Source: Singulisphaera sp. GP187 (GTDB lineage: Bacteria > Planctomycetota > Planctomycetia > Gemmatales > Gemmataceae). From it: 44,773 nt of DNA. Under the pieces are notes generated by a model. The model saw only the letters and a program-made list of their open reading frames with translations, ran no database searches and was not told the DNA's origin. The position numbers and the translations under genes are program-made. Numbering within the stretch: position 1 is the first letter of the stretch; each line of letters opens with the position of its first letter. This document shows, piece after piece, positions 15,413 through 30,385 of this stretch. The stretch is taken from NCBI GenBank assembly GCA_945905925.1, contig CAMDQN010000050.1, positions 1 to 44,773 on the forward strand, read 5' to 3'.

Positions 15413-16339
15413 ATGTCGGTTCTGCGGCGCGATTTGTGGCTGGGGCAGCGGGCCGCGTACCTCGCGCGTGTCGCGCAGTGGGCGGAGGACCGCACCGCGC
15501 GGATGGCTCGCGGCCAGAAGCACCCGGTCTACGATTTCCTGTTCGAGTACTACTCGTGGCGCCCGGCGCACCTACTCCGATGGACGCCGGGCTTCGGCGT
15601 GCCACTCGAAGGCGCGACCCGCGAGGATATCGCGTGGGCCGAGTTTATTTCTAGTGACAACGGGCTGTCACTGCCCGCGAGTGCATTCCCGGAACACCGC
15701 GTCTCGTACCTCCGGTGGGCGGTCGAGTACCTCGGTGCGGTTCTGTTGCGCGAGCCATCGTTCGCGTGTTTGGGGCTGCACGAGTGGGCGATGGTGTACC
15801 GCGACCTCCAAGTACGGCACCCCGACGTTCCGCTTCGCTTGTCGCGCGACGAAACGGACGCGGTGGTGGACTCGCAGCGGCTGTGCTGTACGCATTACGA
15901 CGCGTTTCGCTTCTTCACGCCGGCCGCAGTGCCACTGAACCGCTGGGAACTCACGCGGGCCGCAACCCCTGAGCACGACCAACCGGGTTGCATCCACGCG
16001 AACATGGACCTGTACAAGTTCGCGTTCAAGATTGCGCCATTCTGTCCCTCTGAAGTGGTCGCGGACGCATTCGAGGTGGCGCGGTTCGCACGCGAGATCG
16101 ACATGCGCGCCAGTCCCTACGACCTGAGTGCGTACGGCTTCGCGCCGATCAGGGTCGAAACGCGAACCGGGCGCGAGGAGTACGTCGAGTTGCAGCGCGG
16201 AGTGTACCTGCGGGCGCAACCGGTGCGCGAGCGTGTGCTCGATGTTTACGCGAGCTTGCTTGGCGCTGCGAGAAGAAACCTCTCCCCCCAACCCCCTCCC
16301 CTAAGAAGGGAGGGGGCTTCAGACATTTGCACTTCGTAA
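15413..16339 (+). CDS. Conserved protein usually annotated as 3-methyladenine DNA glycosylase
   Basis: A 308-aa protein. Conserved blocks include HPVYDFLFEYYSWRP, LHEWAMVYRD, THYDAFRFFTP, QPGCIHANMDLYKFAFK and EIDMRASPYDLSAYGF. These match a family that genome pipelines label 3-methyladenine DNA glycosylase, chiefly in actinobacteria. I do not know of biochemical proof, so treat the function as provisional. The start at 15413 is chosen because an 82-bp divergent intergenic gap separates it from the REC-PP2C gene; the longer frame overlaps that gene. The last 22 or so residues (NLSPQPPPLRREG and following) come from a palindromic repeat, whose loop also supplies the TAA stop. Confidence 0.75.
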   Translation: MSVLRRDLWLGQRAAYLARVAQWAEDRTARMARGQKHPVYDFLFEYYSWRPAHLLRWTPGFGVPLEGATREDIAWAEFISSDNGLSLPASAFPEHRVSYLRWAVEYLGAVLLREPSFACLGLHEWAMVYRDLQVRHPDVPLRLSRDETDAVVDSQRLCCTHYDAFRFFTPAAVPLNRWELTRAATPEHDQPGCIHANMDLYKFAFKIAPFCPSEVVADAFEVARFAREIDMRASPYDLSAYGFAPIRVETRTGREEYVELQRGVYLRAQPVRERVLDVYASLLGAARRNLSPQPPPLRREGASDICTS

Positions 16340-16407
16340 ACGTTCACGGCGCTCGAAGGTTTGAAGCCCCCTCCCTTCTTAGGGGAGGGGGTTGGGGGAG
16401 AGGTTTC
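16275..16407. repeat. Large GGGGAGGG-family palindromic repeat
   Basis: Arms 16275-16321 and 16362-16407 are reverse complements except for one extra C in the left arm; the loop is 40 nt. Each arm also contains its own small hairpin (CCCTCCC...GGGAGGG). The left arm and loop are translated as the tail of the upstream gene. As a hairpin it would separate that transcript from the retron locus that begins at about 16439. Confidence 0.9.
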
Positions 16408-16438: not shown

Positions 16439-16467
16439 TTGCTCTCGCTTCTCACGTCGTTTACAAC
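16439..16467 (+). promoter_or_regulatory. Possible promoter of the retron locus
   Basis: TTGCTC at 16439-16444 and TACAAC at 16462-16467 are 17 nt apart, a weak sigma70-like match. Transcription would start near 16474, which coincides with the first base of the a1 arm of the proposed ncRNA (16473). The position is more persuasive than the hexamer scores. Confidence 0.4.
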
Positions 16468-16472
16468 CTCCC

Positions 16473-16748
16473 TACTTCCGAGACGCAGACGAGGGAAAAG
16501 TCGTTTAGCTCGCTGCTTTGCAGCAGGGTGATGTTGCGTCACCCGAGCGCTTGCCTTGCGATACGACTCGAGGAAGGCTGTTCCAGCACCGCTATCGCCG
16601 CCAGGGGGCCTGGTACGACATCGGTCTGGATCAACCCCGCGGTTCGTGGTTCCGATGTCGTACCAGGCCCCCTGGCGGCGGCGGTGCCGTGAGCCTTCCG
16701 CGATCCAGGTTAGGTAGTAGACGCGTCCCTCGTCTGCTCTCGGAAGTA
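16473..16748 (+). ncRNA. Putative retron ncRNA (a1-msr-msd-a2)
   Basis: The layout is as expected for a retron template RNA. The a1 arm 16473-16496 pairs with the a2 arm 16726-16748 over 23 bp with a single bulged C. After a1 comes TTTAGC; the G at 16508 is the candidate branching guanosine. Two small msr-like hairpins follow: 16512-16524 (5-bp stem, TTT loop) and 16526-16544 (6-bp stem, 7-nt loop). Then comes a long msd-like hairpin, 16572-16699, of 44 paired bases: 8 bp, an internal loop, 7 bp, a 3-nt bulge, then a perfect 29-bp core 16596-16624/16652-16680 with a 27-nt loop. The a2 arm ends 4 nt before an AGGAG ribosome-binding site for the gene at 16766. The retron-type RT is encoded 12.3 kb downstream in the same direction. 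The structure is seen; the function is inferred. Confidence 0.75.
16572..16699 (+). other. msd-like long hairpin inside the ncRNA
   Basis: The 5' stem 16572-16579 pairs with 16692-16699, 16586-16592 with 16681-16687, and 16596-16624 with 16652-16680. The terminal loop is 16625-16651. If reverse transcribed from near a2, the DNA product would be roughly 130-150 nt, within the range known for msDNA. Confidence 0.65.
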
Positions 16749-16765
16749 AATCAGGAGCCTCTCCG

Positions 16766-19700
16766 ATGGCGGCTGTTTTGACGCTGGACGATGTCCGCAA
16801 GGCGTGGGACGCACGCGATCCGCGACTCATCACGCTCATCGAACAACTCTGCACCCAACCGGTACCGGCGCCCGAAACGCCCATCCGCGACGGTGCGCTC
16901 ACGTTCGACAAGTTCCTCTACCAGCTCCGCGACTACCGCTATCGGCAGAAGTCGAAAGAGGAACAGGCGCACTACCGCACCGAAACGCTCAAGGCGCTCG
17001 AAGACCCGAAAGCGGAAGTGCCGCTCGCGGACAAGTTGAAGGTTCACGAGGTCATCTTCGCGCTGTGGGAATCGAACGACGGGCTGGCCCGCGATTACCT
17101 CTTGCGCATCATCGCGCGAGTGCCGCTCGTGTACGGGCCGTGGAAGGCCATCAAGAAGATCTTCAAGGAGTCCGAGGCGAAGAACGACACCGAGATTTAC
17201 GGCGCGATCGCGGCTCGGCTCGACATGGCGCACGCGGGCGCCGCTTACGGCAAGCAAGTCAGTGGCGCCACCATCGCGTACTGCGTTCGTCGCGCGTGGC
17301 GCTACCTGCGGCGAGTTGGGCTGCACCTCCCCGCGACCTATCCCGATGTCGCGTGCGAGTTCCTCGTGAACTACACCGACGGCGTGCGGCTCAACGGTTC
17401 GTGGGTGTTCAACCACATCCTGTATCACGACTCCAAGAAGTACGGGCGGTCCAATTTCCGGTTCGGTTGGAACGACAAGACCGCGGACCCAACCAACCTC
17501 AAGAACCGCGCTTATGGCGACACTTGGAAGCGCAGTCACCGCCCGCTGTTCTCGCTCCTCGAACGCGCGAAGTGCGACGCAGTCCGCGACTACGCGACCA
17601 CCGCGCTGAAGACCGACTTCCGTCAGGTGCTTCGCGATACGGAACCGTCGTGGGTTGTGCGGTTGGTCGCGGTGCCGAGTCGCGCGATTCACGACTTCGT
17701 GGTGTGGTTGCTCCAGAACGTGCCGAAGTTCGAGCAGAGCGCGTTCCGCACGCTCGGGCTTCACGACGCGGTGTTGAAGTTGTTCGATTCGCCCTCGGCG
17801 GATGCGCGGAAGTACGCCGCGAACTACGCACGCACGCACGCTCGCGATTTGCCCGTCAGCGAACTCATCAAACTCGCGAACAACGACAACGACGACGTGC
17901 GGAAGCTCGCTCGCGACCTTCTCGGCGAGAAAGACCCGCGAACTGGTGTGGGTCTCGACGCGTGGGGTCAGTTGCTCGAAACCGATCACGGACACAAGTT
18001 CGCGGCGGAGTCGATCACCAAGCACTTCGGCGCGAAGGAACTCACACCCGAATGGTTTTCGGGCCGGCTGCTTTCGGACAGCGACGCCGCGTTCAAGTTC
18101 GCGACGCAGTTGTTGCCGAAGGTTCACAACCTCAAGGAACTCGGCCCGGCGTTCTTCGCGACGCTGCTTCAGAAGTTGAACCCAGACGACGACAAGACCG
18201 ATCGCGTCGTGAGTTACGCCGCCGGTGAACTCGCAAAGTTCGACCTGAACGCGCTCGCACCGGACCTGCTCAAGTGGCTCGCGCTGTTCCCGCCGACGGA
18301 CGATTACGTCATCACGTGGGTGAACCAGGGCAAGTTGAAGGCTCAGACGCTCGGTATGGACTTCTGGAAGATGATGGCGTTCGCGCCCGACTGGGACGCG
18401 AGTCCGTGGCTCGCCGCGTTCAAAGTTGCGAATGGCGCGTGGGCGAAGGAGTTGACCTTCGACGACAACCGCGCCGCGAACGTGCTGAAATGGTTCGCGG
18501 ACGTGCGCAAGTTCACGACGACTGAGTTGAGCTTCGAGTGGCTCATGCGACTGGTGGCGCGCAGCGAGCCGATGTACCACGACTTCGCCAGCGATAGGTT
18601 GATTCGCACCTTCTTGCCTTCTGATTTCGCGCCGAAGCAAGCCCCACCTGCCGCAGCAGGTAAGCTCGAAGCGCCTGGTGTTACTGCTGATCTCAAGGGG
18701 GCGTCGTTCCTATTTACCGGCAAGATGGCGTCGATGACGCGCGACGAGGCCGAGAAGCAGGTGAAGGCCGCGCACGGCACCGTCGCCGGGTCGGTGTCGC
18801 CCAAATTGCACTACCTGGTGATCGGCGACGATGGCTCTCCGCTGTACGGGCAAGGCGCGAAAGGCAGCAAGCAGACCAAAGCCGAGGAACTGAACGACAA
18901 GGGCGCGAACATCAGCATCATCTCGGAGACGGCGTTTCTCCAGATGGTCTCCGGCGAACGCCCAGCTACTGCGTTGGCTGGGGCATCGGACGCGGTCACG
19001 GTGGGCTGCGAACGGTTGTGGCAACTCGTCATCGCGCCCGGGCCGGCGGACGCGCCCGTCGGCCGCTTCGCACGCGAATACGTCCGCAAGCACCACACCG
19101 AAATCGCGCAGAAGTTAACCGAGCGACCCGTCGATAAGGGCGCGGAAATCCCGGCGTCGTTCCTCTCGCTGGATCGTGTACTCCCGCTGTTCAGCGAGAG
19201 CCGCAAGCCGCTGCGTGAGTTCGCGCTCGAACTCGCGAGTTGGGAGTTCGCCCGGTGGAACCCCGGCGTCGATCACCTCGTGAACATGGCCGACATTCCG
19301 TTCATGGACGTGCGGCGGTTCGTCGCGAAGTCGCTGCTCGCGGAAGACACGCCGCCGAACCGCCCGTTCCGGCTCGACCCCGCGAAGCTCGAAGCGAGTG
19401 CCGTCTACCGGTTCTGCGAATCGAACGACGAGGAGACACGCGCCCTCGGCATGGAACTCATCAACCGCCTGCCGAAACTGCGCGTGCCGGAAGAACTGTT
19501 CCGCCTCTCGGAAAGCCCGGACCGCAAGGTGCGTGCGTTCGTGATTCGCGCGCTCTGGACCGTCTACCGCGATCGCGGTTTGACGCCGGACTGGAAGCCG
19601 CCGCTGCCACCCAAGCCGACCGTCGGCGCGAAGGCGAAAAAAGACGCGGAGAAGGCCGCGCAGAATCGCGGTGACGGCATCCCGCACAAACCCGAGCAGT

Positions 19701-20062
19701 GGCCCGCCGCGAAGCCGACGCTCTCGGAGTTCCTGCGGCGCATCCTGTTCGAGATTCCGCCGGGGCGGCCGGAGAAGTCGCGCGACGCCGTTGAGGATAG
19801 CGAACCGAACCCCGCGGACCCGAACGCGAAGAAGCCCGACAAGGTCGTGAGCGTGAAGCCGCTTCCGGCGCGCCGAGCGAAACTCGATTTGGTCGAGGTG
19901 ATGCGCGACATGGGCATTGAAGACAAGGAGTTCGGCGGCGGGATTCTTCCGCTGCTCGACGAATTCATGCTGTCGCGCGGGCCGAGCGAACGCGCCGCGT
20001 GCCTGGTCGCCGTCACCCGCATTCGCCACAAATTCCCCGAACTGAAGAAGGGGGACGCCTAA
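16766..20062 (+). CDS. HEAT/ARM-like repeat protein with internal BRCT domain (retron-associated)
   Basis: A 1098-aa protein. Residues 1-630 and about 750-1098 are helical and repeat-like, suggestive of ARM/HEAT solenoids (for example NNDNDDVRKLARDLLGE near 370-390). Residues about 638-728 look like a BRCT domain: LKGASFLFTGKMASMTRDEA, then HGTVAGSVSPKLHYLVIGDD, a Lys-rich connector and ISIISETAFLQMV. That is the fold used in DNA ligases and damage-signalling proteins to bind DNA ends or phosphopeptides. A Pro/Lys-rich linker lies near 950-970. AGGAG 8 nt before the ATG at 16766 supports the start. The stop is followed after 1 nt by the next ATG, so the two proteins are translationally coupled and probably form a complex. 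I recognise no enzyme motif. Confidence 0.8.
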   Translation: MAAVLTLDDVRKAWDARDPRLITLIEQLCTQPVPAPETPIRDGALTFDKFLYQLRDYRYRQKSKEEQAHYRTETLKALEDPKAEVPLADKLKVHEVIFALWESNDGLARDYLLRIIARVPLVYGPWKAIKKIFKESEAKNDTEIYGAIAARLDMAHAGAAYGKQVSGATIAYCVRRAWRYLRRVGLHLPATYPDVACEFLVNYTDGVRLNGSWVFNHILYHDSKKYGRSNFRFGWNDKTADPTNLKNRAYGDTWKRSHRPLFSLLERAKCDAVRDYATTALKTDFRQVLRDTEPSWVVRLVAVPSRAIHDFVVWLLQNVPKFEQSAFRTLGLHDAVLKLFDSPSADARKYAANYARTHARDLPVSELIKLANNDNDDVRKLARDLLGEKDPRTGVGLDAWGQLLETDHGHKFAAESITKHFGAKELTPEWFSGRLLSDSDAAFKFATQLLPKVHNLKELGPAFFATLLQKLNPDDDKTDRVVSYAAGELAKFDLNALAPDLLKWLALFPPTDDYVITWVNQGKLKAQTLGMDFWKMMAFAPDWDASPWLAAFKVANGAWAKELTFDDNRAANVLKWFADVRKFTTTELSFEWLMRLVARSEPMYHDFASDRLIRTFLPSDFAPKQAPPAAAGKLEAPGVTADLKGASFLFTGKMASMTRDEAEKQVKAAHGTVAGSVSPKLHYLVIGDDGSPLYGQGAKGSKQTKAEELNDKGANISIISETAFLQMVSGERPATALAGASDAVTVGCERLWQLVIAPGPADAPVGRFAREYVRKHHTEIAQKLTERPVDKGAEIPASFLSLDRVLPLFSESRKPLREFALELASWEFARWNPGVDHLVNMADIPFMDVRRFVAKSLLAEDTPPNRPFRLDPAKLEASAVYRFCESNDEETRALGMELINRLPKLRVPEELFRLSESPDRKVRAFVIRALWTVYRDRGLTPDWKPPLPPKPTVGAKAKKDAEKAAQNRGDGIPHKPEQWPAAKPTLSEFLRRILFEIPPGRPEKSRDAVEDSEPNPADPNAKKPDKVVSVKPLPARRAKLDLVEVMRDMGIEDKEFGGGILPLLDEFMLSRGPSERAACLVAVTRIRHKFPELKKGDA

Positions 20063-20063
20063 C

Positions 20064-23000
20064 ATGGCCTCGCAGAAATGGACCCCGTTGATCGCCCGGC
20101 TTCGCAACCTGTTAACGGTTCTGCGCGCCTTGGCGAAGCACAAGGAACAGGTCACCGAGGATCGCTTCGACGAAGCGTTCAGCGAACTCGACGACATGCT
20201 CTACTCGTTCCCGGACGATGTCTACGAAGAGCTGTACACCGAACTGAGCGCGATCGGTGAGGCCGAAAACGGGGCCGCCGTGGAAGCCACCGGCACGGTT
20301 GCGCCGCTGGCGCTCGGCGCCGCGCTCGACGCGACCGTGAAGGACTTCATGGCGCAGATCGAGCGTCTGAACGACGCGGTCAACAAGCTCTCGAACAGCG
20401 ACGAAGACGAAGAAAGCGGCGACGAGGACGATGACGACGGTGAAGGCGACGAGGAGGCAGGTGGGGACAAGCCAGAGGAACCGAAAGCGACCAAGTCGCT
20501 CGGCGAATCCGGTCCGGGCAAGTCGCAGACGTACCGCGGCGACGTGAAAGCGGTGGTCGGCGTCGGCGGGTCGCTCGCGTTCGTCACCGTTCACCCGGAA
20601 GGCGTGCCGACGGCGCTCTACTGGCTCGACGTTGACAAGCTGAGCATGCAGCAGGACGCGCTGCCGTGTGGCGGCGTCTCGCTCGCGGCCGACGGCAACA
20701 CGGTCTACGTCGGTGGCACCGACAAGCACCTCTACGAGTGCAGCAAGAAGGCGCCGAAGGTTCTCGCGGGGCCGTTTGCATCTGACATCGTCGCAATCGT
20801 TCCGGTCGCGAAGAAACGCATCGCGGTGATGCACGGCAAGCAGATCGACATCATCTCGGACAAGGACGGCAGCGCGAAGCAGACGCTCGAACTCCCCGAC
20901 ACCGGGACGTGCCTCAGCGCCGACAAGAGCGGCTTCTGGCTCGCCGCGGGCACCACAAAAGGCATCGTCGCGGTGTTTGAGGGCGAAGGCAAAGACGAGT
21001 TCGAGCCAAGCGAGTCCGCGAAGCTCCACGACGGCGCGGCAACGGTTGTCGCGTTCGAGCAAGAAGAGCTGCGGTTCTTCTCGTCGGGCGCGGACAACAA
21101 GCTGCTCACCACGTTCGCACGCGGCAGCCTGGAGCCGGAAGACAAGGGCCGCGCGAACATGCACGAGGACGTGCTCACGTCGCTCGTGTTCGTGCCCGGC
21201 GACCGCATCGTGACCGGTTCGCGTGACACCACGCTCAAGAACTGGCCGCGCGGCGGCGCGATCAAACCGAGCACGCTGAAGGACACGGTCGGGCGTGTCA
21301 TCGGGATGGCTGTCGTCACGGTTTATAACCAGCCGCACGTCGCGGTCGCGTCGGACGACAACAGCATCCGTCTCGTCAAACTCGCACCCGATGGCAAGTT
21401 CCCGGACGACGACGTTGTGACCGCGAAGGTCACCGGCGCCGCGGACTGGGTGCAGAACGAACTGAGCCAGAAGCACGACCCGAAGCGCCGCGAGAAGGCG
21501 CTGAAAGTTCTCGCGGAGTGGAAAGACTCCGCGAGCATCGATATCCTCGGCGAGCAACTCACCCGCGACCCGGATAACAAACTCCGCGAACTGATCGCGG
21601 AATTGCTGGTCGCGAGCGACAACCCGCGCGTTGGGAAGATTCTCGAACGCGCCATCGGGCACAACGACGGCAAGGTTCGCGTGATCGCGTTCGAGGGGCT
21701 TCACAAGCGGTCGAAGGGCGACCTCGGACCAATCGACCTCGCGCTGAAGACCGGGCAGGCCGATGTCGGCGTGAAAGCGGTCAAGGCACTCGAACCGCTC
21801 GCGAAGGACGACGACCAGGCGCTCACGCGCCTCGTGGATGCGCTCAACGCTTCGACGTGGGACGTGCGGAAGGCGACGCTCGCGGCGCTCGAAACGGTTT
21901 ACGACGCGAAGGCGCCGACCGCGAGCCTCACCGCGCTCACGTCGAAACACGGCGACATCCGCCGCGAATCGCTCATTCGCACTTACGAGCGATGGCTGCT
22001 CGAAGACCCCGCGGTTCAGTCGGCGATTCGCCGGCGCCTCGAAGACGAAGACGCGGGCGTGCGCAAAGTTGCGTTCTTGCTCTCGGTGGAGTCGAAACCG
22101 GACCTCGCCGCGGTGCTGCGCGCACTCGACCCCGAACTGCACCGGCAGTTGAAGGAACTCGAAGCGCCGCCGAAGTCCGACAAGGACAAGACCGACAAGA
22201 AGGACGACGACAAGACCGTACCGCCGGTCGTTCCGGGCGCGAAAGAGAAGCTCACACCCAACGATTACGACACGCTGCTTCAAGCCACCGCGAGCCGCGC
22301 CCTTGACACCTGTTTACGCGGCGCTCGCGGCCTCGCGGTGTTGGGCGACCCGCGTGCGTTCGGGTTGTTGTTGCAACTGAGCCGCGAAGAAGACGTGAAC
22401 GCGCGCGTCGATGTGTGCCGCGCGCTCGCGGCCCTCGACGACGAACGCGCCGTGAACCGGCTCCGCTCGATGCTGTTCGACCCGCAAGCATCGGTGCGCG
22501 ACGCGGCGTACACCGCGCTCGTGAAGATCTTCGACAAGACGCCGCTGTCGGTCGCGGAGTCGGGACTCACCGCGGCCGAGGAAGACGTGCGCCGCCGCGG
22601 TTTGGAAACACTGATCCAGACCGTCAAGAAGAAGAAGCCGACCGCGCACGGCGAACCGGGCTGGGACTTGCTCGTTCGCGCGCTCAACGACAGCGCTCGC
22701 GGGGTGCGCAGCGAAACGTTCAAGGCCTCGCTCAACCTGAAGATCGCCGGCGGCGGTGCGGACACGCTCCGCTTCACGCTGCAGTCCATTCACCCGGACG
22801 TGCGCCGCGAAGCACTCACCGAAGTCACGGCGCAAGAGAAGGAAGAGTGGGCGTCGCCGCTCTTGTACGAGTTCTTCAACGACGCCGACCCGGGACTTCG
22901 CAAAGAGGCGTTCGAGTTCGCGACCAAGAAGAACAAGGAAATCGCGGTCCTCGAAACGGCACTCAAGTCGCGGTTCCCCGACACACGCAAGCTCGCGGTC

Positions 23001-26000
23001 GAAGGGTTAATCAAGAAGCACTCGAAGGCGGCGCAACAGGTTCTGCTGAAGGTGATCGACGACGTCGACCGCGACGTGCGCCTGATCGCGGTCAACGCGC
23101 TGGTGGACGACGACGCGAAGGCGCCGCTCAAGGAGGCGATGAAGAGCGAACGCGCCGACATTCGCGTGCGCGCAGCGGCGGCGCTCGCGAAGCACGGCGA
23201 TCCTTCAACGTACCCGGTGCTGATGGCACTGGCGGAGACACCTGAACCGCAGTTGAGCGAGCGCGTTTCGGACTGGCTCGACGCGACCGCCAGCGCGCTC
23301 TTCGGTCTCGGCGAACTCGGCGACCCGCGTGCGCTGAGTATCGTTCTCCCGCTCACAGACAGCAAACACGCGAGGCTCCGCAAGGCGGCGACTCACGCGC
23401 TCGTGTGGGTCGCGAAGGCCGACACAACGGCCGCGCTTCGCGCGGCGCTGCAAAACTCCGACCCCGAGGTGAAGTACCGCGCCGCGCTCGGGCTCGCGTA
23501 CCTCGGCGATGCCACCGTCGTTCCGCTTATTCGCTCGGTCGAAGGCAGCAAGATCGTCACGCCGGCGGAGCAATTCACCGCGACCGTGTCGCTCGGCGCC
23601 GCGGCCGGCGTGCAGGGCACCGTGTACCTCGATAGCCCCGAAGAGAAGCTCCGCGACCGCGCCTTACTCGCGACGCTGCTCCTTGAGTTGAAGGACACCG
23701 ACGGGCAACCGGAGAAGTGCATCGAGTGTGTTTCCGCGAAAGGCGCGCGGTTCCGCTTGACCGGTGCGCAGGCGCTCGAAGCGTTCGCGGATCGCGCCGC
23801 GTTCCGCGACTTCGTCATCAAGGAGGTGAACGACCGCGGCGAAGACACGCCTTGGAAGGTCACGCCCGAAGTGGTAGACGATTTCGCGAATCTGCTCGCG
23901 TTCGCCGAACCGCAGTTGAAGGCAAAGACCTCGCTCTTGTTGTCGTTGTTCGACATCAAGGAACAAGCGGAGTGGAACGCGGCGTGGAGCGTTCACAGCG
24001 CGCGATACGCGAACGAAATCAAGGCCGCGAAGGATGCCGCGACAAAGGCCGGTGTGCCGGTCGCGTCGAAGCTCACGCCGGAGCAACTCCGCGAACTCGC
24101 GTTCGGCGGCTACGTCGGTCTGGTGCGCGAACAGGGTGCCAGCAGTGGCGGTCAACCCATCGGCAAGGTGCGGCAGACGGCGCTGTCGCGCATCTTCGCC
24201 ATCGCGTCGAAGGACGCGACCTACAGTCGCTCCGCGCAGCCGGTTCTCGCGCAGGCGATGGGCGATCCCAATCAACCGGTTCGCACGCAAGCGTTCGAGC
24301 ACCTGCAAGCGCTCGGAATGGACAAGGCCCAACTCGGCGCCGAAGCACTCGAAGCCGGGTTCACCGACCTCGGCGTGAAGGGTTTGGAACTGCTCACCGA
24401 CGGCGCCAGCGCGAAGAAAGGCGAAGCGGTCCTTGAGCGCGTGATGCTCGCGCGGTCCGACGAACTCTCCATCGAAGCCGCGAAGTTGCTTCGCGACCGA
24501 CGCGGCAAGGTGGTCGTCGCGCAGAAGGCGCTCGACGCCGTTCATGAGCCGATGCGATTGACCGCGGTCGAGTGGCTCGCGTCCGAATACGAGAGCAGCG
24601 CGGACGCGCAGAAGTCGCTTCGCGGCGCGGTCGAATCGCGATACCGCAAGGTGCGCGAGAAGGCCGCGTTCGAGTTGGCCGGCAAGAAAGACCCAGTCGC
24701 GTACGACACGCTCGCGAAATTCCTCCGCGACGCCAGCGATTACGGCCGTCAGAACGCCATCGTGCAGGCGCTTCGCGGACTCGGCGACAAGCGGGCCGCG
24801 GATGCGTTCCTCGACCGCGTCGAGAACGACCCGGCCGGCACCGCGGAAGTCGAAATGCTCCTCAACGCGGCGGCCGAGTTCCGCGTCCCCCAGACCGCGG
24901 ACCGATTCTTCCTGCTGCTCGACAAACTGAAGGACTGGCAAGAGACGATTAACGGCGCGATCCTCACCGTCAGCGGGCACGATCAGTACGTCGGCGATTC
25001 GGAGGACGAAAGCCCCAACGACCGCGCCGCGTGGATGAAGGACCAATACCCGCGACACGACACGATTCTCGCGCGGCTGATGGAGAGAGCGTTCACCACC
25101 GGCGACCCAGATTACATCACCGGCTCGCTGCTCGAAGCGGCGAGGTGGTCGCTCGGCAAGGACGTGGACGCAGTGTTCGCCACGCTCTGCACCAGCCCGA
25201 ACGTCGATCTGCGCGACGCCGCGATTCAGGCCTACGGCTGGCGGTTCCGCAAGCGAGCGGCTTCGCCCGAACCGTTGCTGAAAGCGGTGAAGCACAAGAA
25301 CCCGGTCACGCAGTTCATCGCGGCGGAAGGCCTGGCTCGCGGCGGGCGAGTCGAAGGGATGCAGGTTCTGCTCTCGGGCATCGAGTACCTCGAAGACACT
25401 TCGCACCGGGTTCGCGCGGTGCAGGCGCTCGGCGAACTCGGCGACCCGCGTTCGGTCGATAAGTTGCTCTCGCTCGCCACCGAAGACGGCAACCCGCTGC
25501 AACAGGCTGCGACCGAAGCCATCGGCCACCTGAAGAAATCTCCTCAGGCCGACGCCGTGTTCAGGCTGCTCGAAAAGCACGTGAAGAACCAGAACGATTA
25601 CAACCTCTCGCAGCGCGCGATCGTCGGCTTGCGATACTTCGACACGCCGAGCAGTTGGGATCTGGTCCGCGCGAAGGTGAACGCGAAGGGCTACGGCTGG
25701 TGGCTCACGCGCCTGAAGGCCACGGCAGCGGAACAACTTGGTTACAACGACGACCCCGCCACACGCGACCTGCTCTTGAAGTTGCTCCGCACGAACACCG
25801 ACGACGAACTCGCGATGGCGGCGTACAAGAGCGCCCGCCGGTTGTGGGGTAAGGATTCGCTCGAACCGAACTACAACCTGATCCAGAACCCGAACGCGAG
25901 TTCGTTCGTCGATGACACTGGCGAGGATGGTGGTGCGCTCGAGCCGGTCGTCAAACGGGGCGACGCGCTCAGGATGATGGAGCTGTTCCCGAACTGCCAG

Positions 26001-26957
26001 CCTGACATTCAGGAACAACTCGAATCGGCGCTGCTCACGCGACCGAACCTACCCGTAAAAGAAGCCGTCGCGTCGATGAGCCACGCGGACGAGGGGACGG
26101 TCCGCCTCGCAACGCGGCTGCTCGGGCGCGTGCCGAACCCGGACGCGAGTGTGAAGGACGCCATCGGCTCGGCGCTCACGAAGTGGTGGACGACATGGCA
26201 GGAGCGGCGCAACAAGGCGCTCAAGTCCGCGGACGCGCTGGATAAAGCCGGTGCTCTGGTCGAGAGTTTGCTGTTCACGGCGGGTCGCGTCGGGGTTCCG
26301 ACAGAGTCGATCGCGAACGTCGCGAAGTCGCGACCCGATGATCCTCTGGCGCGCGGTATCAGGCTCGAAGCGGTGCGATGTCTCGCGATCGGCAAAGTCA
26401 CGCCCGCGGTTCTCGACACGCTCGAATCGCTCGCGGTTGGCCCGGATGCCGACGTTCGCGTGCTGAGTGCCGAACTGCTCGCCAGGTTCGACCCGAAGCG
26501 TGCCGCGAAACTCGCGGAGAAGATGCTCTCGGACCGCCCCGGCTTCAACCGGCTCGTGATTGCGAAGGCCGTTTCCGCCGCGAACGTAACCAGCGCCGCC
26601 GCGAACGTTCACCTTCAGCCCGTTGCCTTGCCAGTGTTCGTCGCCGAGAAGGACGTGACCACGCTCGCGGCAGTCGCGAAGGATAAGAAGGCGAACGAAG
26701 TTGCCCGCCTCGGCGCGGTGGAAGGCTTGGGTGTGATGGCCGTGGAAACCGCGGAGAAGGTGCTGGTGGAGATCGGCACCGCGAAGGACGACGAGAAGGA
26801 ACTTCGCAAGGCCGCGTGGCGCGCGCTGCGGCGATCGAAGCGCGCGAGGGCACGCGGCGCAGCGAACACGCTCGCGACGATGCCGAAGGCGCCGAAGAAG
26901 GCGAAGAAGGCTCCAGATGCGAAGGGTGGCGCGAAAGTGGACGAGGGTGAGGAGTAG
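20064..26957 (+). CDS. Giant beta-propeller plus HEAT-repeat protein (retron-associated)
   Basis: A 2297-aa protein, no signal peptide. An N-terminal helical segment (1-110) is followed by a very acidic stretch (about 112-145). A WD40/propeller-like region (about 150-465) has recurring units such as GNTVYVGGTDKHLYEC, GDRIVTGSRDTTLKNW and PHVAVASDDNSIRLVKL. From about 470 to 2240 there are dozens of HEAT-type units with the recurrent pattern GDPRAxxxLxxLxxDxxxxVRxxAxxAL. A charged linker lies near 705-730 and a Lys-rich tail (KAPKKAKKAPDAK) ends the protein. This looks like a large scaffold or sensor. It lies 1 nt after the BRCT protein gene. In the retron type I believe this resembles, an ARM-repeat protein accompanies the RT; here the array is very long. 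Confidence 0.88.
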   Translation: MASQKWTPLIARLRNLLTVLRALAKHKEQVTEDRFDEAFSELDDMLYSFPDDVYEELYTELSAIGEAENGAAVEATGTVAPLALGAALDATVKDFMAQIERLNDAVNKLSNSDEDEESGDEDDDDGEGDEEAGGDKPEEPKATKSLGESGPGKSQTYRGDVKAVVGVGGSLAFVTVHPEGVPTALYWLDVDKLSMQQDALPCGGVSLAADGNTVYVGGTDKHLYECSKKAPKVLAGPFASDIVAIVPVAKKRIAVMHGKQIDIISDKDGSAKQTLELPDTGTCLSADKSGFWLAAGTTKGIVAVFEGEGKDEFEPSESAKLHDGAATVVAFEQEELRFFSSGADNKLLTTFARGSLEPEDKGRANMHEDVLTSLVFVPGDRIVTGSRDTTLKNWPRGGAIKPSTLKDTVGRVIGMAVVTVYNQPHVAVASDDNSIRLVKLAPDGKFPDDDVVTAKVTGAADWVQNELSQKHDPKRREKALKVLAEWKDSASIDILGEQLTRDPDNKLRELIAELLVASDNPRVGKILERAIGHNDGKVRVIAFEGLHKRSKGDLGPIDLALKTGQADVGVKAVKALEPLAKDDDQALTRLVDALNASTWDVRKATLAALETVYDAKAPTASLTALTSKHGDIRRESLIRTYERWLLEDPAVQSAIRRRLEDEDAGVRKVAFLLSVESKPDLAAVLRALDPELHRQLKELEAPPKSDKDKTDKKDDDKTVPPVVPGAKEKLTPNDYDTLLQATASRALDTCLRGARGLAVLGDPRAFGLLLQLSREEDVNARVDVCRALAALDDERAVNRLRSMLFDPQASVRDAAYTALVKIFDKTPLSVAESGLTAAEEDVRRRGLETLIQTVKKKKPTAHGEPGWDLLVRALNDSARGVRSETFKASLNLKIAGGGADTLRFTLQSIHPDVRREALTEVTAQEKEEWASPLLYEFFNDADPGLRKEAFEFATKKNKEIAVLETALKSRFPDTRKLAVEGLIKKHSKAAQQVLLKVIDDVDRDVRLIAVNALVDDDAKAPLKEAMKSERADIRVRAAAALAKHGDPSTYPVLMALAETPEPQLSERVSDWLDATASALFGLGELGDPRALSIVLPLTDSKHARLRKAATHALVWVAKADTTAALRAALQNSDPEVKYRAALGLAYLGDATVVPLIRSVEGSKIVTPAEQFTATVSLGAAAGVQGTVYLDSPEEKLRDRALLATLLLELKDTDGQPEKCIECVSAKGARFRLTGAQALEAFADRAAFRDFVIKEVNDRGEDTPWKVTPEVVDDFANLLAFAEPQLKAKTSLLLSLFDIKEQAEWNAAWSVHSARYANEIKAAKDAATKAGVPVASKLTPEQLRELAFGGYVGLVREQGASSGGQPIGKVRQTALSRIFAIASKDATYSRSAQPVLAQAMGDPNQPVRTQAFEHLQALGMDKAQLGAEALEAGFTDLGVKGLELLTDGASAKKGEAVLERVMLARSDELSIEAAKLLRDRRGKVVVAQKALDAVHEPMRLTAVEWLASEYESSADAQKSLRGAVESRYRKVREKAAFELAGKKDPVAYDTLAKFLRDASDYGRQNAIVQALRGLGDKRAADAFLDRVENDPAGTAEVEMLLNAAAEFRVPQTADRFFLLLDKLKDWQETINGAILTVSGHDQYVGDSEDESPNDRAAWMKDQYPRHDTILARLMERAFTTGDPDYITGSLLEAARWSLGKDVDAVFATLCTSPNVDLRDAAIQAYGWRFRKRAASPEPLLKAVKHKNPVTQFIAAEGLARGGRVEGMQVLLSGIEYLEDTSHRVRAVQALGELGDPRSVDKLLSLATEDGNPLQQAATEAIGHLKKSPQADAVFRLLEKHVKNQNDYNLSQRAIVGLRYFDTPSSWDLVRAKVNAKGYGWWLTRLKATAAEQLGYNDDPATRDLLLKLLRTNTDDELAMAAYKSARRLWGKDSLEPNYNLIQNPNASSFVDDTGEDGGALEPVVKRGDALRMMELFPNCQPDIQEQLESALLTRPNLPVKEAVASMSHADEGTVRLATRLLGRVPNPDASVKDAIGSALTKWWTTWQERRNKALKSADALDKAGALVESLLFTAGRVGVPTESIANVAKSRPDDPLARGIRLEAVRCLAIGKVTPAVLDTLESLAVGPDADVRVLSAELLARFDPKRAAKLAEKMLSDRPGFNRLVIAKAVSAANVTSAAANVHLQPVALPVFVAEKDVTTLAAVAKDKKANEVARLGAVEGLGVMAVETAEKVLVEIGTAKDDEKELRKAAWRALRRSKRARARGAANTLATMPKAPKKAKKAPDAKGGAKVDEGEE

Positions 26958-26983
26958 AGGCGCAGATTTGGCGATTGAGAGAT

Positions 26984-27059
26984 CGTTTAGCGTCGGCCCC
27001 GCAGGGGGCACGCTGCCTTGAAATCAAATACTCGGCCCCTCCGGGTCCAACGCTAAACG
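26984..27059. repeat. Imperfect palindromic repeat, CGTTTAGCG...CCGGAGGGG family
   Basis: The left arm begins CGTTTAGCGTCGGCCCCG at 26984; the right arm 27034-27059 ends CCAACGCTAAACG. The arms match imperfectly. It fills the 138-bp gap between the giant HEAT gene and the SWIM gene and is homologous to the near-perfect element at 30386-30485. Confidence 0.75.
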
Positions 27060-27095
27060 GACGGGGCGACTCGCCTGTGATGGGAGATTGAGGTT

Positions 27096-28958
27096 ATGGC
27101 GACAGACGTTGTTGAAGACACCACAGGCGACGCCCCGCCACCAGCGCCGGCCAGCGGCGCGCACCTGTCCTACGGGGGTGCGAGTCGCGTCCTCACCAGC
27201 GGGAACACCGCGCAGGTGGAGATGTTTGGCAACCTCGACCGCACGCCGGTGCGATTCGAGGCGACGATCAAGAATCCACTGCGGTTCCGCGAAGCGCTGT
27301 CCGCGCTTTATGGCGTCATCGGCAGCGACTACCGGTACGCGCCGAAGGACCGCACGCAGTACATCGCGTACCTGCGTCTGAAGCGCGACGCGGCCCCCCT
27401 CGGCGTGTGGCACGCGCAACAAGCGTACTTCGCGTGGATGCTCCGCAACGACCCGACCGCGCTCACGATCCTCGATCCGGTCGTGAGCGTCCACCCGGAT
27501 CAGATCACCTTTGAGGTGTTCGGCAAGGACGAAAGCACCTACGCGTGCCTGGCGTTCAAGCAAGAAGCCTTCGCGGGTCTCGGCAAGACTGAGAGCGGCA
27601 CCACGAACATCGACTTCAGCGACGCCTTGTATTCGAGCATGCAGCAGATTCGCGGTTACCGCGAGACCAAGTTCGCGATCGGGCACGACGGTACGAAGCC
27701 GACTTCCGAAGGACGCAAGGAAGTGCTCGAAAAGAAAATTCAGGTGCCGGACTCGTGGCTCCGCGGGTTCCTGCAAGTGCAGTCCGCCGCGACACTGCCG
27801 TTCGACCACGTGCAACTCTCGCCGATGGACCTGTACAACGTGTTGCGGCACCTCCGCATGAACGGCGACCGCAAAGGCAAGAAGCGAGGTTTACGTTTCG
27901 AGTTGGTCCCGGCACAGCAACCGCGAATCGTCGCGGAACCGTGGGAAACGGTGTTCACCACAACCGGCGATGTGTTCCGCGGAAAGGCCGCGCGACTCAT
28001 TCGCGTGTGGGGCCGCCGGCGTCTCATGACCATGAAGCGCCTCCTGCCGTTCGTGCAGAGCGTTGACGTTTACCTGTTGGGGAGCGGGCTTCCGAGCTTC
28101 TGGGTGTTCCGGTGCGGTGACATCACGTTGACACTCGGCATGACCGGGTTCACCTCCGCGAACTGGTCGAGCGCGCTCGGTTTCGACTTGCTGCTTCCGC
28201 GAAACACTCAGGACGGCGAGCCAACGAAGAAGGTGGTCGCGTACCTCGCGGACCAGTGGAAGGCGACCGCGAAGGAACTCTCGCAACAAACCGGCATCAA
28301 GGGCGCGGCGCTCGTCGAAGCGGTGCAGGTGGGCTGTCAGAACGGCGAGCTGATGTACGACATCGCGAACGCGGTGTACCGGTCTCGCCCGCTGACGGCG
28401 AAGCCACTCGACCTCGCGCGGCTTCAGTTCCGCAATCAGCGTGAGAAGATCGCACACGACCTTCTCACTCGCCGCGGCGCGGTGCGCATCACGGGCGAGA
28501 ACCGGATCGCGGGCATCGGCCTGGAACTCACCGGCACCGTGAGCGTCACCGAAGACAAGCGCGACTACCGCCCGCAAATGGTCATCGCGGACGAAGGGCA
28601 AGTTCGCAAAGTGACCTGTACGTGCGCCGGGTTCCGCAAGCAGGGCATCAAGGCCGGACCGTGCATTCACTTGATCGCGCTGCGCCTCGCGTTCGCGGAG
28701 AAGGAATCGAAGAAGGCGAAGAGCGACGACGCGGTGAAGTTCGAGACACGCGCGTTCGCGAAGCGCGACGGCGAGGTCGAGAACGTCGTCCAGATTTCGC
28801 TGGAGCGCGACAAGATCAAGTACCGTTGGGGTCTGAGCGGGCAAACGATGCGGCTCCAGACGCTGCGGTTCAACAGCGACGTGGACGCTCGCCAGGCGTA
28901 TTTCGCCAAACTCGCGGACCTCGACGCGAAGGGCTATTTGGACGCGATCGCGGAATAA
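27096..28958 (+). CDS. SWIM zinc-finger protein (WHSWIM-like, retron-associated)
   Basis: A 620-aa protein. A SWIM zinc finger with the CxC...CxH pattern is visible near residues 508-526 (CTCAGFRKQGIKAGPCIH). Upstream, about 387-435 (WKATAKELSQQTGIKGAALV and following), is a plausible winged helix-turn-helix. The first 350 residues are a beta-rich region I cannot assign. SWIM fingers bind nucleic acids or proteins. A winged-helix plus SWIM protein is a known companion of one retron RT type (type XIII as I recall). The start ATG at 27096 follows a GAGG-type ribosome-binding site by a few nt. The gene lies between the giant HEAT gene and the RT, each separated by a palindromic repeat. It could bind the msDNA or act as the effector; neither is shown. 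Confidence 0.85.
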   Translation: MATDVVEDTTGDAPPPAPASGAHLSYGGASRVLTSGNTAQVEMFGNLDRTPVRFEATIKNPLRFREALSALYGVIGSDYRYAPKDRTQYIAYLRLKRDAAPLGVWHAQQAYFAWMLRNDPTALTILDPVVSVHPDQITFEVFGKDESTYACLAFKQEAFAGLGKTESGTTNIDFSDALYSSMQQIRGYRETKFAIGHDGTKPTSEGRKEVLEKKIQVPDSWLRGFLQVQSAATLPFDHVQLSPMDLYNVLRHLRMNGDRKGKKRGLRFELVPAQQPRIVAEPWETVFTTTGDVFRGKAARLIRVWGRRRLMTMKRLLPFVQSVDVYLLGSGLPSFWVFRCGDITLTLGMTGFTSANWSSALGFDLLLPRNTQDGEPTKKVVAYLADQWKATAKELSQQTGIKGAALVEAVQVGCQNGELMYDIANAVYRSRPLTAKPLDLARLQFRNQREKIAHDLLTRRGAVRITGENRIAGIGLELTGTVSVTEDKRDYRPQMVIADEGQVRKVTCTCAGFRKQGIKAGPCIHLIALRLAFAEKESKKAKSDDAVKFETRAFAKRDGEVENVVQISLERDKIKYRWGLSGQTMRLQTLRFNSDVDARQAYFAKLADLDAKGYLDAIAE

Positions 28959-29048
28959 GGCGAACCCCGCCCGCAAGGGCGGGGGTGTCGCACACTGTAA
29001 CCGACCACCGACGACCCGCACCCACCGCCCTTGCGGGCGGGGTTCGCC
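28959..29048. repeat. Perfect 24-bp inverted repeat between the SWIM gene and the RT gene
   Basis: 28959-28982 is the exact reverse complement of 29025-29048; inner bases extend the stem imperfectly. It starts right after the SWIM stop codon and ends 8 nt before the RT ATG (29057), so the folded RNA would cover the RT ribosome-binding region, where no clear Shine-Dalgarno is seen. It lacks the a1-msr-msd-a2 layout and is too short for a typical retron ncRNA. Confidence 0.85.
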
Positions 29049-29056
29049 GAGACACC

Positions 29057-30385
29057 ATGAGCACTACGACACCGACGACCGCTCCCGACAACGCGACCCT
29101 GTGGCGGCTGATCGTTCAGGCCGGCGGGATGAAGGCCTACGTTGACGGGCAACTCCGCGAGCGCGGGTTCCTCGTCACGCGCCGCGACGCGGACGCGATG
29201 TCCGACCGCGAAAAGGACACCTATAAAAAGTCGCTCAAGCAGGAAGCGGAAGAGCGTCGGAAGTTGCGTCGCGAGACGTGGGGCGCGTACAAGGCGAACC
29301 ACATCGTTCACCTCGGCGAAGGCGTGTTCTGGACCGACGAGCCGCGCGAAGATAAGTGGGACACGCCCAACAGCGAAGAGCGCGCGGCCGAGAACGAATT
29401 GCCCCCGCTCGACAAGGCGCAGCAACTCGCGGAAGCGCTCGGCGTGACCATCCCTCAACTGAAGGGCATGGCGTACCACCGCGACGCGGCCACGAGCCTG
29501 CACTACGTCCGGTTCACGATCCCGAAGCGAGACGGCACCGAGCGCCCCATCTGGGCACCGAAGAAGCGGCTCAAAGCGGCACAGCGGTGGATTCTGCACC
29601 ACATCGTCGAACGGTTGCCGGTTCACGGTTCTGCGCAAGGCTTCCTCGTGGGACGGTCGATCCTCAGCAACGCGCAGGTTCACGAGAACCCCAAGATTCT
29701 GCTGAAGATGGACATCAAAGACTTCTTCCCGACGGTGACGTGGAAGCGTGCGAAAGGCGTGTTCCGCAGGGCTGGTTATCGCGACGGTATCAGTACGCTG
29801 CTCGCGCTCATTTGCACCGAAGCGCCGCGCGAGATCGTGACCGTCGAAGGCAAGACCTACTACGTTTCACTCGGACCGCGCTGCTTGCCGCAAGGCGCGC
29901 CGACCAGCCCCGCGATCACAAACGCGCTGTGTCTGCGGCTCGACCGACGGCTCGCGGGGTTGGCGAAGAAGTACGGCTGGCGCTACACCCGCTACGCGGA
30001 CGACCTCACGTTCAGTCTGCCGATGGATCACAAAGGCCCGCCGAAGCTCGGCGCGATGATGGGGTGCGTGACACGCATCGTCGCGGGCGAGGGATTCGAG
30101 ATCAAGCAGGAGAAGACCCGCGTTCACCGCACCGGTGGCCGACAGAGCGTGACCGGTCTCGTGGTGAACGGCGATGGCCCGCCGCGCACGACGCGCAAGT
30201 TGCGTCGGCAACTCCGCTCCGCAATTCACAAACTGAAGACGAACAAGCCGCTACAGGAAGGCGAATCGCTCGCGAGATTGACCGGCTACGCGGCGTTCGT
30301 CTACATGACGAATCAGGAGCTGGGCCGCAAGATGTTGGCTGACATTCACGGCTTCGAGGGGAAGGAAGAAGGCGAAGAGAAGTGA
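29057..30385 (+). CDS. Retron-type reverse transcriptase
   Basis: A 442-aa RNA-directed DNA polymerase. Motifs seen: retron region X NAQVH (residues 205-209, fitting NAxxH) just before the first catalytic aspartate region LLKMDIKDFFPTVT; LPQGAPTSPAITN (about 278-290); the catalytic YADD (313-316); and retron region Y VTG (365-367) in SVTGLVVN. NAxxH plus VTG distinguishes retron RTs from group II intron and most other bacterial RTs. No maturase or endonuclease domain follows, which argues against an intron. The first 120 residues are a Lys/Arg-rich helical extension before the palm domain. It is the last gene of the putative operon. It should prime from the 2'-OH of a guanosine in the ncRNA and copy the msd. 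Confidence 0.93.
   Translation: MSTTTPTTAPDNATLWRLIVQAGGMKAYVDGQLRERGFLVTRRDADAMSDREKDTYKKSLKQEAEERRKLRRETWGAYKANHIVHLGEGVFWTDEPREDKWDTPNSEERAAENELPPLDKAQQLAEALGVTIPQLKGMAYHRDAATSLHYVRFTIPKRDGTERPIWAPKKRLKAAQRWILHHIVERLPVHGSAQGFLVGRSILSNAQVHENPKILLKMDIKDFFPTVTWKRAKGVFRRAGYRDGISTLLALICTEAPREIVTVEGKTYYVSLGPRCLPQGAPTSPAITNALCLRLDRRLAGLAKKYGWRYTRYADDLTFSLPMDHKGPPKLGAMMGCVTRIVAGEGFEIKQEKTRVHRTGGRQSVTGLVVNGDGPPRTTRKLRRQLRSAIHKLKTNKPLQEGESLARLTGYAAFVYMTNQELGRKMLADIHGFEGKEEGEEK

Follow-up and report, generated by a model that had tools for sequence, protein, structure and literature searches.

A putative type XIII retron operon with its own RNA at the head, and a dispersed family of related RNA copies with hypervariable hairpin arms

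The stretch of DNA analysed here, which we call the window, comprises 44,773 nucleotides (nt) of contig CAMDQN010000050.1 from Singulisphaera sp. GP187. It contains an element at 16473-16748 that an earlier reading of the letters (the original prediction) took for an unannotated retron noncoding RNA, and four protein genes downstream of it that match the PADLOC models for retron type XIII, among them a reverse transcriptase (RT). The predicted structure of the element, the compensatory changes among its copies and its linkage to RT_XIII all support the identification as a retron RNA. Going beyond the original prediction, the same RNA recurs at many other places in this genome and its genus, in copies that share one scaffold and differ in the arms of a long hairpin. 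The features of the locus are as follows.

16439-16467, + strand: promoter-like sequence TTGCTC-17-TACAAC, ending 5 nt before a1 (sequence and loose family motif)
16473-16496, + strand: a1, 5' arm of the closing stem (fold; the a1 and a2 of RT-linked copies pair in other species too)
16503-16549, + strand: msr, with TTTAG(C), the candidate branching residue G16508 and two short hairpins within GCTCG/CGAGC (fold; AG invariant in 12 copies; compensatory changes in the hairpins)
16572-16593, + strand: conserved 5' scaffold of the msd, GGAAGGCTGTTCCAGCACCGCT (alignment of copies)
16596-16624, + strand: left arm of the msd hairpin, hypervariable, 29 nt (29/29 pairs with 16652-16680; comparison with other copies)
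16625-16651, + strand: loop region of the msd hairpin, conserved, 27 nt (comparison of copies)
16652-16680, + strand: right arm of the msd hairpin, hypervariable (pairing with the left arm)
16681-16722, + strand: conserved 3' scaffold, GCGGTGCCGTGAGCCTTCC...AGTAGAC, putative start region of reverse transcription (alignment of copies)
16726-16748, + strand: a2, 3' arm of the closing stem (fold)
16766-20062, + strand: HEAT-ARM_XIII protein, 1098 residues, with a BRCT domain at residues 643-710 (PADLOC E=0; Pfam BRCT 2.5e-6)
20064-26957, + strand: second HEAT-ARM_XIII protein, 2297 residues, with beta-propeller-like and HEAT repeats (PADLOC E=0; Pfam)
27096-28958, + strand: SWIM_XIII protein, 620 residues, PCNA-like at residues 53-358 in a model (PADLOC 2.6e-189)
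29057-30385, + strand: RT_XIII reverse transcriptase, 442 residues (PADLOC 4.4e-159; Pfam RVT_1; translation)

The RNA element and the genes that follow it

The ends of the element are complementary, a1 and a2 forming 23 Watson-Crick pairs interrupted by a single bulged C, and the core of the long hairpin is perfect, since 16596-16624 is the exact reverse complement of 16652-16680. The motif TTTAGC lies at 16504-16509 and makes G16508 the candidate branching residue; in established retrons a UUUAG start is read as the branch site. The two short hairpins that had been predicted are found within 16503-16549 by folding, and they carry compensatory changes across 12 copies. In the alignment of these copies, 33 of the 68 consensus pairs show such changes. 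The folding energy of 16473-16748 is -183.1 kcal/mol; 200 dinucleotide-shuffled versions averaged -110.2 (standard deviation, sd, 5.1), and not one was as low (z -14.2). A scan of the window with Rfam returned no family at the gathering score, and a scan of four loci up to E 10 gave nothing near that score, chiefly noise of the miRNA hairpin type and no retron family.

The original prediction placed a promoter-like sequence so that the transcript would begin at a1. The sequence TTGCTC-17-TACAAC does fit a loose motif of the family; a generic and strict sigma-70 consensus scan called no promoter at 16439-16467. Beyond a2, the Shine-Dalgarno sequence AGGAG precedes the ATG at 16766, as anticipated, and the RT open reading frame (ORF) begins at 29057, 12,309 nt past the end of a2, in agreement with the predicted spacing of 12.3 kb and with the position of the RNA ahead of the accessory genes.

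Because four ORFs match HEAT-ARM_XIII (twice), SWIM_XIII and RT_XIII of PADLOC, we assign the locus at 16473-30385, on its sequence, to the type XIII retron operons, headed here by its own RNA. Motifs of retron-type RTs are NAxxH, YADD and VTG; the translation of the RT bears NAQVH, YADD and VTG. All four window proteins are thus those of retron type XIII, and what sets this locus apart is that the RNA heads the operon some 12 kb from the RT and that the genus carries many extra copies with different hairpins. With the classic msr-msd-RT retrons the element shares a1/a2, the UUUAG start, the msr hairpins and the long msd hairpin, and it differs from them in distance to the RT, in copy number and in its hypervariable, dyad-rich arms. 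The same genome encodes a second RT (G000, contig C46, 23576-24694) with a weaker match to RT_XIII (6e-109), and further RT subfamilies akin to it were found across the family.

An AlphaFold model of the SWIM_XIII protein, based on a 30-sequence alignment, has a predicted local distance difference test score (pLDDT) of 81.6. In this monomer model, residues 53-358 resemble the PCNA chain 2ix2_B (VIA Z 16.2, 213 aligned residues, root-mean-square deviation 2.6; Foldseek 5e-7), so that a sliding-clamp fold of the PCNA type is predicted for this part of the protein.

Linkage of the RNA with the reverse transcriptase

A covariance model, R1, was made from 12 copies of the window genome (alignment A1) and searched in 95 genomes of the family and then in 397 genomes of the class. 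R1 matched in 31 of the 95 family genomes. Of the 38 family genomes whose RT_XIII match reaches E <= 1e-150, 30 are among these, as is one of the 57 others. A homologous structure in genomes that lack the RT, which the original prediction had named as evidence against itself, is therefore confined among the 31 RNA-positive family genomes (E <= 0.001) to G036, with a single weak match (E 3.2e-4). Among the 397 class genomes, 40 have a match; ten of them belong to a second family, and RT_XIII is present in all ten.

The RNA and the RT are not only found in the same genomes but are also physically linked. In 30 genomes both are on the same contig and strand, with the RNA 11.7-13.5 kb ahead of the RT; the spacings were worked out by hand from the match positions, and G166 is counted only via an RT fragment (E 1.9e-4). 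By group, this linkage is seen in 12 of 17 genomes of the genus, in 9 of 13 other family genomes and in 9 of 10 genomes of the second family (G166 included). In most of the unlinked cases the contig ends too early (for G025 and G227 this was judged from the RT position or not checked).

The RNA is not always so distant. Among 23 loci of more distant RT relatives, 15 have an R1 RNA directly 5' of the RT (E 3e-28 to 1e-19), and by their record titles 13 of these belong to Myxococcota groups (Corallococcus, Myxococcus and Sorangium, for example) and two to Deltaproteobacteria. In the distant loci that were compared, the RNA sits between the SWIM gene and the RT gene. Sister lineages of the RT show related RNAs about 100 nt or less from the RT match in G043 (two in tandem) and G029, and about 2 kb upstream in G041. 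Given these loci, the great distance seen in the window is one way of placing an RNA that follows the classic retron order elsewhere, and it may be the derived one. Two loci of sister RT lineages hold two hairpin RNAs near one RT, with differing stems (L226, 13493-13564 and 15446-15517; L227, 2456-2893, minus strand).

Dispersed hairpin-forming copies might also suggest DNA elements unrelated to any retron, resembling miniature inverted-repeat transposable elements, repetitive extragenic palindromic sequences or attC sites. We regard this as very improbable. The elements co-occur with the RT and are linked to it, they have RT-adjacent homologues in the Myxococcota-type loci, their 5' part resembles an msr and carries compensatory changes, and the element of the window stands at the head of type XIII genes.

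Dispersed copies with a constant scaffold and replaced arms

In well-studied retrons, one RNA is paired with one RT. The genome of the window holds 17 copies of the RNA, 16 of them away from the RT (the R1 search gave 22 rows, separated by eye into these 17, four antisense echoes and one weak match), and one additional fragment lies at the end of contig C127. Genomes of the genus have 7-39 matches each, antisense echoes included, and those of other genera in the family have 1-7. A scaffold pattern extracted 149 elements from the fetched loci. Arm pairing was scored in 142 of these (loop region 86-92 nt, no N); a1/a2, promoters and terminators were counted in the 135 that had both anchors and their flanks; and pairs were compared among the 132 of exactly 89 nt. 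Decayed copies are under-counted, since the sample of 149 consists mostly of the best-scoring copies.

A priori, it may be asked whether only the RNA of the RT operon works as a template, the dispersed copies being retrotransposed or recombined relics. Several copies are indeed truncated, collapsed or decayed, as detailed below, and large copy numbers are confined to one genus, with only 1-7 matches elsewhere. Lampson and Rice (1997) and Lampson et al. (2002) reportedly deal, to judge by their titles, with msDNA-like repeats in the chromosome of Nannocystis exedens, where msDNA is multicopy single-stranded DNA, with a partial copy and with possible retrotransposition, and these titles propose just such an origin for those repeats. 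Judged in this way, the Nannocystis repeats are the nearest precedent for a dispersed RNA family: in both cases sequences resembling msDNA are repeated in one chromosome, and the present case differs in that many copies are full-length and have a1/a2 of their own, sites resembling promoters and terminators, and hairpins that vary from copy to copy. These properties argue against relics, which we consider unlikely. Tested against 61 partners, a copy's own a2 is the best match to its a1 for 52 of 135 copies and among the best three for 88. The loose promoter motif occurs in the 71-nt upstream stretch of 85 of the 135 copies and in 4 of 132 control stretches, and a terminator-like site accompanies 76 of the 135 as compared with 3 of 134 controls. 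In RT-linked copies of different species the sequences of a1 and a2 differ and still match (18 are shown; one lacks the anchors), which extends the compensatory changes called for by the original prediction to the closing stem. Further, in 109 of 142 elements every position of the hairpin arms is Watson-Crick paired despite their differing sequences, and L010, a copy broken at its 5' end, is no longer paired where L151, whose arm is almost identical, still is.

The loop region has the identical length of 89 nt in 132 of the 149 elements, and at most one wobble or mismatch is present in the arms of 132 of the 142. All four bases are widely used at arm positions 2-27 of these 142 elements, and position 28 is mostly G. 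In all, 137 different arms are displayed within one scaffold. In the copies L208, L173 and L213 (G088) the hairpin loop reads NN, perhaps at assembly joins inside the palindrome.

No two of the arms compared within a genome are alike; the smallest difference among 446 within-genome pairs is 8 of 27 positions. Comparison of orthologous loci is informative about how these differences arise. When 58 pairs of loci were matched by their flanks (the pairs share loci and are not independent), the arms of six pairs had 0-1 differences over 27 positions, those of 51 pairs had 13 or more, which is about the level of unrelated arms, and one pair fell between. Between G009 and G010, the RT-linked copies show 2 differences over the 90 positions of the 5' scaffold, 4 over the 43 of the 3' scaffold and 18 over the 29 of each arm. 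Over 66 pairs of RT-linked copies from 12 genomes of the genus, the arms differ at 62% of positions versus 18-20% for scaffold and loop. Arms at orthologous loci are thus mostly replaced wholesale. Exchange between loci is likely because related arms occur at different loci, as in L073 and L176, and in the arm of the window and that of a decayed copy on contig C223 of G013, which differ by three mismatches. A search for the window arm in the 95 family genomes, allowing up to three mismatches, returned only itself and this decayed copy.

Dyads in the arms and a possible bait function

The arms are enriched in dyads. In 100 non-redundant arms there are 63 even palindromes of at least 8 bp, as compared with 23.2 (sd 4.6) in dinucleotide shuffles, and 52 of the 100 arms contain at least one; the corresponding figure is 20.5 (sd 4.0) in the shuffles, and among 27-mers taken from the fetched flanks it is 6.7%. 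Some related arms have undergone symmetric double changes that keep the dyad; examples picked by eye are GGCCGGCC and GGGCGCCC in L182 and L157, and GGCCAG..CTGGCC and GGGCAG..CTGCCC in L103 and L083. A single fixed DNA word as the target is ruled out, the palindromes being of many kinds, and so is a single fixed dyad centre, since the centres are scattered, two zones standing out near 7-8 and 14-19.

These arms might in principle be the product of a mutational process, such as template switching, correction of quasi-palindromes or gene conversion between copies, which would keep them complementary and rich in dyads while their sequence carried no information. The wholesale changes of arms would fit such a process, the related arms at different loci (L073/L176; the window and G013 C223) point to exchange between loci, and the collapsed stems reveal instability. 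Exchange, however, accounts for replacement and not for the excess of dyads or for symmetric double changes within arms, and the within-genome distance of never less than 8 of 27 positions is the opposite of what a homogenising conversion would produce. We therefore think this explanation rather doubtful.

Even-dyad enrichment is what would be expected if msDNAs displayed sites for dimeric DNA-modifying or DNA-binding proteins, and we somewhat favour the following model, in which a whole family of msDNAs comes from a single RT, and their duplexes, fixed in length, display changing dyad sites as baits for such proteins of invaders. The RNA at the head of the operon would be transcribed, and the RT at 29057-30385 would prime on G16508 and copy the msd of this msr-msd RNA, in cis, into msDNA with a hairpin duplex of fixed length as its core. 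The same RT may serve, in trans, those of the other 16 copies that are intact. Scaffold and hairpin length would be held constant for the RT and its partners, the two HEAT-ARM proteins and the PCNA-like SWIM protein, which could encircle the msDNA duplex; a ring that gauges the geometry of a duplex would suit hairpins of fixed length and free sequence. Provided that both arms match, the sequence of the duplex could vary, and each msDNA would present sites recognised by dimeric proteins of phages or plasmids that modify or bind DNA. Once a bait is modified or occupied, the effectors would be switched on in defence.

The nearest precedent for this bait model is Retron-Asa1 and Retron-Squ1, which are triggered by a phage N6-adenine methyltransferase (PMC12548924). 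Its GATC motif is stated there to be on both ncRNAs, with a location in the reverse-transcribed part confirmed for Asa1. That account concerns one motif, in contrast to the family of changing sites proposed here. In the open-access literature searched, which did not include the 2020 classification paper, we found no description of a dispersed hypervariable retron RNA family, and we do not claim that none is in print.

Several observations weigh against the bait model or against parts of it. In the genome of the window at least four copies are broken or decayed (L010, L014, L015 and the second one of L016), and two dispersed copies, L012 and L014, have collapsed to a short stem with the scaffold kept. 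Collapsed hairpins are also found in the RT-linked copies of G089 (L206) and G092 (L205), in elements of 141 and 151 nt, so that not every copy needs a long stem. With respect to linkage, G067 is a real exception, its RNA being on another contig despite room upstream of the RT; a second strong RT in G175 has no R1 match; and at L256, L261 and L262 the SWIM and RT genes are near neighbours, and a local scan placed no R1 RNA in the interval. Eight of the 38 family genomes with a strong RT gave no R1 match in the whole-genome scan, and in three of these eight (G029, G041, G043) a local scan located the divergent R1-related RNAs described above. Whole-genome scans miss weak matches: they gave 0 for G407, G413 and G415, yet their loci L257, L265 and L269 hold the RNA by local scan, and a scan of 235 genomes of the phylum of G403 had matches in only 14 and 0 for G403, which matched in another scan. 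As for the dyads, an even palindrome of 8 bp is absent from 48 of the 100 arms, and odd palindromes show no enrichment over dinucleotide shuffles. The idea that arms are captured from viruses gained no support: exact scans of viral contigs with three 18-20-mers of stems found nothing, a 16-bp palindrome occurred there in 31 stretches, within a few-fold of chance for a collection of this size by our own estimate, and one window arm compared with phages yielded nothing better than 17-base matches, at E 3, in 31 records; each of these tests is weak.

More tentatively, the copies may constitute a sensor repertoire that can be expanded and exchanged. One RT and one effector complex would read a genome-wide library of RNA genes with differing dyad hairpins, sites would be swapped between loci and species, and the result would be an inherited and evolving panel of baits whose duplexes are gauged by the clamp-like protein. 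What msDNA senses is a main question about retrons, and in this family the hairpin varies while nearly all else is constant, so that the link between sequence and trigger is directly testable. The arms also form a large natural set of templates for one kind of RT, and as a whole the family suggests an immunity with a diversified repertoire of DNA baits.

Just ahead of the retron promoter, the window contains at 16285-16398 a long inverted repeat with two 57-nt arms that are 86% complementary. A stretch of the GGGGAGGGGGTTGGGG type, like this repeat, also precedes the copy in L003.
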